From a virus: DNA of 47,192 bases. Positions 22,569-43,489 of the stretch are shown here, one piece after another. The stretch spans positions 1 through 47,192 of the IMG/VR virus record IMGVR_UViG_3300044815_000091. One strand, written 5' to 3'. The stretch's first letter is position 1, and every line of letters starts with the position of its first letter. The translations under genes were made by a program, and so were the position numbers. The notes beneath the pieces were generated by a model, which made no database searches, had not been told where the DNA came from, and saw only the letters and a program-made list of their open reading frames with translations.

Positions 22569-22614
22569 GCCGGGGCGGCGGCCTTTCCTCCCCAGGTTTC
22601 CCCGCCGCCCCGGC
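22569..22614 (+). terminator. Strong hairpin, probable terminator
   Basis: GCCGGGGCGGCGG pairs perfectly with CCGCCGCCCCGGC over a 20-base pyrimidine-rich loop (13 pairs). No U-tract follows, as is common in actinomycetes. Confidence 0.55.
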
Positions 22615-22646
22615 TCAAGACCGGCCGACCGCCATCGGCCGCACCC

Positions 22647-22690
22647 GGCCCGGGCCGCGAGGACTGAGGGGTTCCTCGCGGGCCCGGGCC
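22647..22690 (+). terminator. Second strong hairpin, probable terminator or processing site
   Basis: GGCCCGGGCC-GCGAGG pairs with CCTCGCGGGCCCGGGCC, 16 pairs with one bulge, loop ACTGAGGGGTT. It lies 35 bases before the next start codon. Confidence 0.55.
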
Positions 22691-22724
22691 ACCCGAAGCG
22701 ACGTCTTCCACGAAGGACATAGAG

Positions 22725-23081
22725 ATGAACAGCAACGTCAGCACGCTCAGCCCGGACACCGGCGAGATCCCGCGCCTGCGGCTGTCCGAGAACAAGACCA
22801 CCGACCTGACCTACGCCGCCCACGGGCCGCTGCTGCGCCGCCCGGACGCGACCGGTGAGATGCCGCGCTTCCTGGAGGCCGTGCCCCGCGACCAGGTCCA
22901 GCCGCTGTTCCCGCTGGAGCGGGTGATCGACCCGATGGTCGACGACGTGGTCATCGACCTGCGCCGGTCGGTGCCGTACGTGATCCCGGCCGAGCTGCGT
23001 GACCGCAAGCCGGGCCGCCACCGGGTGCCGGGCGTGTGGGCCCGGTTCGTCGCCGAGTTGGTCCGGCTGGTGTCGCTGTGA
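22725..23081 (+). CDS. Early operon protein, unknown
   Basis: 118 residues from the ATG at 22725 (GAAGGACATAGAG upstream, ribosome site GAAGG). The first half has repeated TGEIPRLR / TGEMPRFL motifs (residues about 12-50), then VIDPMVDDVVIDLRRSVPYV and a basic end. The twin TGE(I/M)PR motif suggests an internal repeat or a short linear binding motif. It overlaps the next gene by GTGA. No family recognised. Confidence 0.6.
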   Translation: MNSNVSTLSPDTGEIPRLRLSENKTTDLTYAAHGPLLRRPDATGEMPRFLEAVPRDQVQPLFPLERVIDPMVDDVVIDLRRSVPYVIPAELRDRKPGRHRVPGVWARFVAELVRLVSL

Positions 23082-31805: not shown

Positions 31806-32055
31806 ACTGTGTCAACGACCGATCGCCGACGTCTTCGCGACCGATGCCGAGGTGCGCCGGCACGCCACCTGCACACCCGGCACCTGCGCCAGTTGCAAGA
31901 CTGAGATGCCGTACGCCGACCTTGAACGAGTCGAACTGGCCGATGGGGAGATCGACCCCGACCCGGACCTGCTGGTCTGCGAGAACGTCTACCAGTGCCA
32001 GGTGCGCGCTGGCGAGATCGGCCCGGACGACGTGCCGTTGGCGGCCCGCGAGTGA
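31795..32055 (+). CDS. Small zinc-ribbon protein
   Basis: 86 residues from the ATG at 31795. Two Cys pairs, CELCQRP and [16 protein letters not shown], with an intervening HATC, form a likely zinc fold; the rest is acidic. GTGA overlap with the methyltransferase, so it may act with it. No named family. Confidence 0.55.
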
Positions 32056-32744
32056 AGCCCTACTACGCCGACGACTCAGTGACGCTCTACCAAGGCGATT
32101 GTCGCGAGATCACCGAATGGCTCGCCGCCGACGTGCTGGTCACCGACCCGCCGTACGGCATCGCCTGGCGCACCGGCGGCGGGCTCAAGTCGCCTGGCCG
32201 ACGTGCCACGGGACGCGCACACGCGGGAATCTTCGGCGACAACGACACGGCTGGCCGTGAAGCAGTGCTAGACGCCTGGCCTGGTCGCCCAGCCGCCGTG
32301 TTCGGCTCGCCAATAATCAATCCGCCCAGCGGCACCCGGCAGGTGCTGTTCTTCCAGAAGCCGCCCGATGCTGGCGTACGCGGTGCTACTGCCGGCTTCC
32401 GCCGCGACGTCGAGCTGATCTACATGCTCGGCCCGTGGCCAACCGGCATCGGCGGGCGCAGCAGTGTGCTCACCACGACCACCCGGAACGTCGGCACGCA
32501 ATACGGACCGGCCGGCCGGTACGGCCACCCCCACGCCAAGCCGGTGGACGTCATGGAGCAGCTAATCGACGCCTGCCCATCCGGCGTCATCGCCGACCCG
32601 TTCGCAGGCTCCGGGTCCACGCTGGTCGCCGCCCGCAACCTCGGCCGCCGCGCGATCGGCGTCGAGTTGGAGGAGCGCTACTGCGAGGTCATCGCCAACC
32701 GGCTCGCCCAGGGCGTGCTGCCCCTCGGAATGGGGGACGCCTGA
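32052..32744 (+). CDS. DNA methyltransferase (N6-adenine / N4-cytosine type)
   Basis: 230 residues from the GTG at 32052. Catalytic motif IV TDPPYG (residues about 31-36) comes first and motif [11 protein letters not shown] (181-190) near the C-terminus, followed by [16 protein letters not shown]; this is the order of beta-class enzymes. It has no visible restriction partner, so it is an orphan that probably protects phage DNA from host restriction or marks phage DNA. It follows the PAPS-reductase-like gene, and the two may act in the same defence-evasion pathway. Confidence 0.88.
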
Positions 32745-32969: not shown

Positions 32970-33050
32970 GTGACTATGCCATGGCAGCGCGCATTGACGC
33001 GCCCCCCCGAAGCTGTGTCTTCTCGCACCACCCGGACGAGTGGCCCATGA
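32970..33050 (+). CDS. 26-residue leader peptide (possible)
   Basis: GTG at 32970 follows GGAAGGAG with good spacing; the frame reads MTMPWQRALTRPPEAVSSRT and six more residues to a TGA at 33048-33050, which overlaps the ATG at 33047 as ATGA. It may couple translation of the replication gene. Alternatively the replication gene starts at the ATG 32981, in which case this frame is silent. Confidence 0.4.
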   Translation: MTMPWQRALTRPPEAVSSRTTRTSGP

Positions 33051-33823
33051 GCGCCGACGACCCCGAGGACTACGGCGCGAAGCCGAACACCTGGAACGCC
33101 CTGGTGCGCCGCGCCCGCATCGGCATCAAGCTCAAGGCCGCCGCGCTGATCGTCAGCACCTACGCCAGCCCGTCCGGCCGAGACGTCAAGTGCGGCGTGG
33201 CCAGGCTGGCGACCGACTGCGAGGTCAGCTACAGCACCGCGCGGCGCTACCTCGCCTGGATGCGCGAGGTCGGCCTGATCGAGCTGGTGAGACCCGGCAA
33301 TCACTACCGGAAGCGGGCCGACGAGTACCGGCTGATCGTCGGCCCGGACGTGCACGCGCGCCTCGACATCCCCGAGTCTGACGAATACCGCAAGCTGATC
33401 GAGGGCGTGAACGAGTCCAACTTCGAGAGCGAAAAGAAGCGACGTCTGCGCTCACCTAAGGCGAGCGCAGAGCCTACGGAATCCGACGAAAGCTCTGCGC
33501 TCACAAAGGAACGAGCGCAGAGCGCCGATGTCTGCGCTCATTCTGACGCACCTCTGCGCTCATCCCTATGTGACTTGCTACCGACCACCTCTATTACCGA
33601 TCAAGGAAGAGCACCGACCACTGGGGGCGCGCCGCCCCCAGACCCCCGACGACGCCTGCCGCCTTCGGCGTCAGCCAACGAACCGCAACGCTCGCTCTCC
33701 GCGCCACTCACCCCAGCCCCACGCCAAGAGAGTTACCCACTCCCGCGCGTGGACGCGGGCGGCGCGTTCACCGCCGAGCACGTTGCTCCGGTCTATGACT
33801 TCTTCACCCGAGAGGCGATCTGA
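33047..33823 (+). CDS. Replication initiator, lambda O-like, with origin inside the gene
   Basis: 258 residues from the ATG at 33047 (coupled to the leader frame); the in-frame ATG at 32981 would add 22 residues. Residues about 12-97 are a winged helix domain (NTWNALVRRARIGIKLKAAA, CGVARLATDCEVSYSTARRY, REVGLIELVRPG). After residue 130 the protein is a low-complexity Ser/Ala/Pro linker ending in a short conserved-looking tail (AEHVAPVYDFFTREAI). The linker codons hold six copies of a 10-bp iteron. By analogy with lambda O and DnaD/RepA-like initiators, the N-terminus binds the iterons and the C-terminus may recruit host helicase factors. Confidence 0.75.
   Translation: MSADDPEDYGAKPNTWNALVRRARIGIKLKAAALIVSTYASPSGRDVKCGVARLATDCEVSYSTARRYLAWMREVGLIELVRPGNHYRKRADEYRLIVGPDVHARLDIPESDEYRKLIEGVNESNFESEKKRRLRSPKASAEPTESDESSALTKERAQSADVCAHSDAPLRSSLCDLLPTTSITDQGRAPTTGGAPPPDPRRRLPPSASANEPQRSLSAPLTPAPRQESYPLPRVDAGGAFTAEHVAPVYDFFTREAI
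33445..33641. other. Candidate origin of replication: six iterons and a palindrome
   Basis: TCTGCGCTCA occurs forward at 33445-33454, 33494-33503, 33531-33540 and 33553-33562, and as CGAGCGCAGA (reverse, TCTGCGCTCG) at 33462-33471 and 33512-33521. A relatively AT-rich stretch follows (33563-33605), then the palindrome CTGGGGGCG-CGC-CGCCCCCAG at 33621-33641. All lie within the linker-coding part of the initiator gene. Confidence 0.65.
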
Positions 33824-42595: not shown

Positions 42596-43489
42596 GTGGC
42601 GGTCGAGCAGGTCGCCGCCCGGTACGCCGAGCGGCAGGTGGCGCTGGGCCGGGCGACCGCGCTGCATCTGGGTGAGCTGTGGCGGCTCGTCGACCCACGG
42701 AACATCGCCGCGGCGTGGCGGTCGCTGCTGCCGTCGGCGCTGGCCGCTCTCGGCACCTCGCAGGCCACCGCCGCGGCGTCGGCCGGGATGTACGTCGACG
42801 AAGCACTCGCCGCGGACGGGGTCACCGCCCGCGCGGCCGGCCGAATCGCACCGGGCGCGTTCGCTGGGATCGCTTCCGACGGCCGTCCGCTGGCGTCGCT
42901 GCTGTACGAGCCGGCGATCACCGCGCTGAAACAGATCGGCCAGGGCGTCTCACCCGTGCGGGCTCTGTCGTCCGGCCGTTTCACTCTGGACCTGATCTCC
43001 CGCACGCAGGTGGCCGACGCCGGCCGGACCGCGGTCGGAACGGCGATCGCCGCCCGGCCCGAGGTCGGCGGTTACGTCCGGATGATCGTCGGGAAGACGT
43101 GCTCGCGCTGCCTGATCCTGGCCGGCCGCCGGTACCGGTGGAACGCAGGTTTCCAGCGGCACCCCCGCTGCGACTGCCGCCATGTGCCGGTCGCCGAGAG
43201 CGTCCCGGGCGACGTGACCACGGACCCGAAGGCCTACTTCGACTCGCTCGACGCGGCCGGCCAGGACGAGCTGCTCGGCAAGGCTGGCGCCGATGCGGTC
43301 CGGGCCGGCGCCGACATGGCCCGGGTGGTCAACGCCCGGCGCGGCATGCAGACCGCTGACGGACGGCTCTACACGACCGAGGCCGCCGGGCGGCGCCCGC
43401 GGCTGATGCCGGAATCGATTCTCCGGGAAGCAAAAGGCTCTCGCGATGAGGCCATCCGCCTTCTCCGGCTGCACCGATACATCACCTGA
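42596..43489 (+). CDS. MuF-like capsid morphogenesis protein
   Basis: 297 residues from the GTG at 42596. The central part has the MuF-type motif: ISRTQVADAGRTAVGTAIAA, then KTCSRCLILAGRRYRWNAGF and RHPRCDCRHVPV, a Cys/His cluster that binds zinc in this family. N- and C-terminal parts are helical. Minor head protein that acts during capsid assembly next to the portal. No toxin domain is fused at the C-terminus. Confidence 0.85.
   Translation: MAVEQVAARYAERQVALGRATALHLGELWRLVDPRNIAAAWRSLLPSALAALGTSQATAAASAGMYVDEALAADGVTARAAGRIAPGAFAGIASDGRPLASLLYEPAITALKQIGQGVSPVRALSSGRFTLDLISRTQVADAGRTAVGTAIAARPEVGGYVRMIVGKTCSRCLILAGRRYRWNAGFQRHPRCDCRHVPVAESVPGDVTTDPKAYFDSLDAAGQDELLGKAGADAVRAGADMARVVNARRGMQTADGRLYTTEAAGRRPRLMPESILREAKGSRDEAIRLLRLHRYIT

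Follow-up and report, generated by a model that had tools for sequence, protein, structure and literature searches.

The window, that is the complete 47,192-nucleotide stretch of the IMG/VR virus record IMGVR_UViG_3300044815_000091, harbours a gene for a probable O-like replication initiator (positions 32981-33823, plus strand), and within this gene lies a compact array of short repeats, or iterons, which is considered here as a candidate origin of replication. The gene was assigned by PHROG matches and aligned relatives and codes for 280 amino acids from the ATG at 32981, while comparison with the relatives indicates that translation may start at the ATG at 33047 instead. An AlphaFold2 model (mean pLDDT, predicted local distance difference test score, of 90) contains a winged-helix DNA-binding domain encoded by 33071-33439 on the plus strand, after which the translated protein turns low in complexity. 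This is the place where the initial annotation had noticed six decamers, four forward and two reverse, in 118 bases, and their exact positions were recovered: six perfect TCTGCGCTCR copies occupy 33445-33562 in the orientation +,-,+,-,+,+. The forward word TCTGCGCTCA accounts for iterons 1 (33445-33454), 3 (33494-33503), 5 (33531-33540) and 6 (33553-33562), and the reverse word TCTGCGCTCG for iterons 2 (33462-33471) and 4 (33512-33521), the inverted partners of iterons 1 and 3, respectively. With start-to-start distances of 17, 32, 18, 19 and 22 base pairs (bp), the array closes with a direct pair opened by iteron 5 and completed 22 bp later by iteron 6. No further exact copy occurs in the 47,192-base contig, and one-mismatch copies outside the array are found at chance level (17 vs 15.9 expected).

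The decamers coincide with the low-complexity part of the protein, as they would if they were a mere by-product of a repetitive peptide. Yet, relative to the open reading frame (ORF) 32981-33823, the six copies fall into frames 2, 1, 0, 0, 1 and 2, thus using all three frames and both strands, and synonymous codon resampling of the array stretch, based on the codon usage of ten window ORFs, never produced more than three decamers in 20,000 trials and none at all in 18,291 of them. Selection therefore acts on the DNA rather than on the peptide. Furthermore, in three of the relatives described below (L008, L010 and L013) the ORF stops at or inside the array, and the repeats continue as non-coding DNA. 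Taken together, frames, strands, resampling and the arrays running past a stop codon rule out a peptide-repeat source for all practical purposes. Resampling served as a better null model than the maximum k-mer count per 120-bp segment, an unclean measure in that simulated triplet runs score similarly. By k-mer count, a 9-mer occurring four times within 120 bp was also seen at 22571-22760 and 42661-42820, and these sites may represent simple triplet runs.

Past the array, the initial annotation had described an AT-richer stretch and a 21-base palindrome, both of which are present. The candidate DNA unwinding stretch of lower G+C content (GC) spans 33563-33619; its lowest 25 bp, beginning at about 33583, have a GC fraction of 0.44, against a window value of 0.70, and just 0.4% of the 25-bp segments of the contig go as low. 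The palindrome at 33621-33641 forms a potential hairpin, CTGGGGGCG-CGC-CGCCCCCAG, with a 9-bp stem and a 3-nucleotide loop. The hairpin is kept in the relatives L007, L009, L010 and L017, of which L010 carries one compensatory exchange of a G-C for an A-T pair. Its absence in L020, L022, L023, L014 and L015 rules it out as an obligatory part of the origin.

The comparison comprised approximately 30 relatives, numbered with the prefix L and drawn from viral contigs, bacterial genomes, a Micromonospora plasmid and phage records; they include metagenomic actinophages, Streptosporangiales prophages, a Micromonospora plasmid-prophage, named Mycobacterium phages and a mycobacterial mini-phage. A search of the phage records with the window protein gave no match, and the homologues in Mycobacterium phages were reached using L012 and L023 as queries; an initial genome scan with an overly diverse alignment also returned no match. 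The relatives have a common layout, in which the winged-helix domain is followed by a lineage-specific iteron array and then by mostly low-GC DNA. Iteron conservation in relatives, put forward by the initial annotation as a check, was borne out in position: an array lies directly past the winged helix in every relative inspected (most weakly in L040, L049 and L048), and the repeated word differs by lineage. The window shares TCTGCGCTCA with L007, L009 and L022, the word TCAGCGCTCA is found in L010, L017 and L023, and TCTACGGACA in L014, L015 and L039, while L020, L012, L008 and L013 use TCAGGGGACA, TTTTGCACCCC, TCTGGGGATCAC and TCTGGGGGTCAC, respectively. The Mycobacterium phages employ CGACCGGACA (phiGD34-2) or CACCGGAAC (phiGD21-1 and IdentityCrisis), JSGardenL2 has ACGGGACA, and further words occur in other relatives.

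The geometry of the array is retained where the word is not. L017 and L020 space their iterons by 17, 32, 16, 19 and 22 bp, nearly equal to the window, and share with it the orientation +,-,+,-,+,+, though the word of L020 differs; the two inverted copies of L017 are two bases off the L017 word. L009 shows the related pattern +,-,+,-,+,-,+. Most of the family ends the array with two or three direct copies spaced 21-23 bp apart, L007, L009 and L010 being exceptions. The initial annotation regarded the alternating orientation as unusual, which is correct in comparison with the direct-repeat iterons of plasmids; the iterons of phage lambda, however, are inverted repeats as well, and alternation is a conserved trait of the window clade. 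Directly after the last iteron, L041-L047 display a 12-bp tandem pattern around CCTACACAG, CCTACCAAC or CCTAGCCAT, which resembles the 12-13-mers that other origins have in their unwinding elements.

Several distant relatives combine their iterons with binding sites for the host initiator DnaA. Perfect DnaA boxes (TTATCCACA or TTGTCCACA), counted as array-linked if located inside an array or no more than 120 bp away from one, number 19 in 12.5 kb of arrays versus 2 in 213.9 kb elsewhere (p = 2e-22, a value that overstates independence, as some loci are near-copies). The array-linked boxes stem from L008, L013, L029 (phiGD34-2) and L040-L049, and those of L040-L049 are all on the minus strand. 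Perfect or near-perfect boxes also lie between the iterons of phiGD34-2, phiGD21-1 and IdentityCrisis.

Most of the 15 members tested match PHROG families labelled “replication initiation protein” or “O-like”, and phrog_391 is matched by 9 of the 15, with a best E-value of 3e-16. The viral Foldseek neighbours of the winged helix include replication protein O of phage Min27 (E 8e-5), one replication initiator and many proteins labelled just as helix-turn-helix. Centromeres for partition, packaging sites and self-immunity elements are likewise made of short repeats, and the array might accordingly be a protein-bound cis site of another kind, such as an aba-like element; a known self-immunity element of the BstA type also sits within its own gene. 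As the family members match replication initiators, with partition and terminase families not among the matches, and as the DnaA boxes in related arrays suggest replication, this alternative is quite improbable.

The word of the iterons also varies along with the protein. At residue 85 of the protein, which lies in the recognition helix (S85, counted from the ATG at 32981), serine accompanies GCTCA in all seven window-clade members with this core, arginine accompanies GGA cores in eight of ten cases, and asparagine accompanies ACCC in three of three. Of the 98 domain columns, S85 is the one most strongly associated with the class of iteron (z 5.0), by a small lead over the next two columns (4.8 and 4.6), with classes set post hoc and kinship handled only by thinning. 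On the tree, the arginine label needs several changes. These data support, but do not prove, that the winged helix is what binds the repeats.

An exact lone iteron near the start of the gene, approximately 400-445 bp before the array, is present in five relatives (at 4002 in L007, 2993 in L017, 2989 in L022, 3995 in L014, and about 445 bp before the array in L039). The window has a possible seventh iteron at 33048-33057 on the minus strand (TCGGCGCTCA, one mismatch), which overlaps the likely start codon ATG 33047. Since several relatives have a lone iteron at their start codon, the initiator may also control its own expression. An alternative reading holds that the array is nothing but an operator cluster, with the winged-helix protein acting as a transcription regulator of its own or downstream genes and the decamers having no role as an origin. 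The lone iterons would fit such a regulator, and so would the domain itself, as regulators often contain winged helices of this type and also supply the best matches in the PDB. The array, on the other hand, is located within the gene, about 400 bp in, and not at a promoter, and it adjoins a lower-GC stretch, the arrays of distant relatives contain DnaA boxes, and the PHROG matches are chiefly replication initiators. An exclusively regulatory role is therefore unlikely, albeit less so than the other alternatives.

We consider the segment from 33445 to about 33619 to be a putative lambda-O-type iteron replication origin inside the linker of the phage's own O-like initiator gene, and assign this reading a probability of roughly 0.88. 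It is based on the DNA-level constraint on the array and on the arrays found at the same place throughout the family, and thereby upholds the lambda-like origin proposed by the initial annotation; it gains further backing from the non-coding continuation of repeats, the DnaA boxes in distant relatives, the PHROG matches and the tracking of the word by S85. The homologues in Mycobacterium phages moreover lie near a gene for a sliding clamp or a DnaQ-like protein, which was counted in favour of an origin.

A number of observations weigh against this reading. The window protein alone matches initiator profiles weakly (phrog_391, E 0.002), and a PDB fold search found nothing at an E-value of 0.001 or better; the matches were generic winged helices with weak scores, among which initiator chains did not rank above regulators, and hence they were not used as evidence. 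The low-GC stretch after the window array is moderate and not strongly AT-rich, L010, L017 and a small number of further relatives show a slight GC dip, and the GC skew across the window leaves no mark at the array site. The window and its clade contain no perfect DnaA box, and the eight one-mismatch boxes in the 47 kb of the window are scattered; therefore, no claim on DnaA is made for this phage. Finally, no gene for a helicase or a P-like loader was recognised among the scanned ORFs of the neighbourhood, which were a subset of all ORFs.

In phage lambda, O, P and DnaB carry out origin melting and helicase recruitment. By analogy, the N-terminal winged helix of the window protein would bind the decamers, as supported by the covariation of helix and word, and the conserved geometry suggests that a bent nucleoprotein complex would form on the inverted pairs together with the direct pair that closes the array at 22 bp. 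This complex would melt the low-GC stretch just downstream, and the host replicative helicase might then be loaded, perhaps via the C-terminal part of the protein, which may recruit the helicase directly, given that no P-like gene was recognised. The window (near 33778-33823) and L007 end with the motif PVxDFFTREA, L009, L017 and L020 have similar ends, and in this group the motif is conserved despite an unconserved linker. L040, L042-L047 and L049 carry a SPYGAEVEG-like motif past the array, and both types of motif are possible partner-docking peptides.

The closest known parallel is lambda gene O with its origin ori-lambda, also represented by the Stx phages 933W and P27, where the iterons are likewise inside the initiator ORF and adjoin an AT-richer stretch. 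Lambda O has an N-terminal DNA-binding domain, and its origin iterons, positioned within its own gene and next to an AT-rich stretch, are inverted repeats to which O binds as a dimer (PMC5043065, PMC7466680). Seen in this light, the alternating orientation in the window can be regarded as a variant of dyad symmetry. In contrast to the 19-bp imperfect inverted repeats of lambda, the window has 10-bp units with inverted partners 17-18 bp apart, start to start, and a terminal direct pair; it also differs by its GC-rich context, the hairpin past the array and the lack of a recognised P-like loader. Iteron plasmids of the P1, pSC101 and RK2 type resemble the family in that binding sites for the initiator recur close to AT-rich DNA, together with DnaA boxes as in the distant relatives, but the window clade alternates the orientation of its iterons, does without DnaA boxes and keeps the array inside the gene. 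Among actinobacterial replicons, Streptomyces linear plasmids of the pSLA2 type reportedly have a phage-like central origin within the initiator gene rep1; pSLA2 differs in carrying a helicase-like Rep2, no equivalent of which was recognised in the window.

Related domains, linker iterons and a subsequent low-GC stretch are found in the Mycobacterium phages phiGD34-2 (gene 53; L029 3980-4834), phiGD21-1 (gene 54; L030 2923-3855) and IdentityCrisis (gene 55; L031 2932-3831), as well as in the 10.9-kb Mycolicibacterium phage JSGardenL2 (L032 4753-5856). Unlike in the window, the main words of these four arrays all have one orientation. The genes are annotated merely as helix-turn-helix proteins, and with the iteron arrays inside them they look like replication initiators that have escaped annotation and carry an origin within the gene.

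The contig represents a temperate siphophage with genes for a tape measure protein, an endolysin, an integrase, exonuclease VIII, a portal and a major head protein, as well as a terminase-like ORF. Just upstream of the initiator gene, at 31995-32744, lies an N6/N4 DNA methylase gene (Pfam PF01555, E 6e-18). Relatives of the initiator occur in the Streptosporangiaceae Microbispora rosea and Spongiactinospora gelatinilytica, and the phage therefore probably infects a soil actinobacterium related to these.

The replication systems of mycobacteriophages were called poorly characterised in a 2020 study (PMC7157519), and no account of the present family as an initiator or origin was found in the literature searched, in which subscription journals were thinly covered, so that an earlier description is possible. 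The strongest new content applies to the family as a whole, namely a fixed origin layout combined with a changing recognition word, and DnaA boxes that some branches have and others lack. For several named phages, in which the gene is labelled just as a DNA-binding protein, and likewise for one clade of prophages from actinobacteria, the analysis predicts origins and initiators with exact positions. Across the family, moreover, nature has varied the initiator jointly with its binding site while the site layout stays constant, and the recognition rule should be testable via simple swaps. Tentatively, and with the odds slightly short of even, these proteins may constitute one widespread and mostly unannotated initiator family of actinobacterial temperate phages, phage-plasmids and mini-phages, which would follow a fixed origin grammar, switch the recognition word through changes in the recognition helix and gain or lose host DnaA boxes by lineage, which would keep prophages that share a cell from activating one another's origins.
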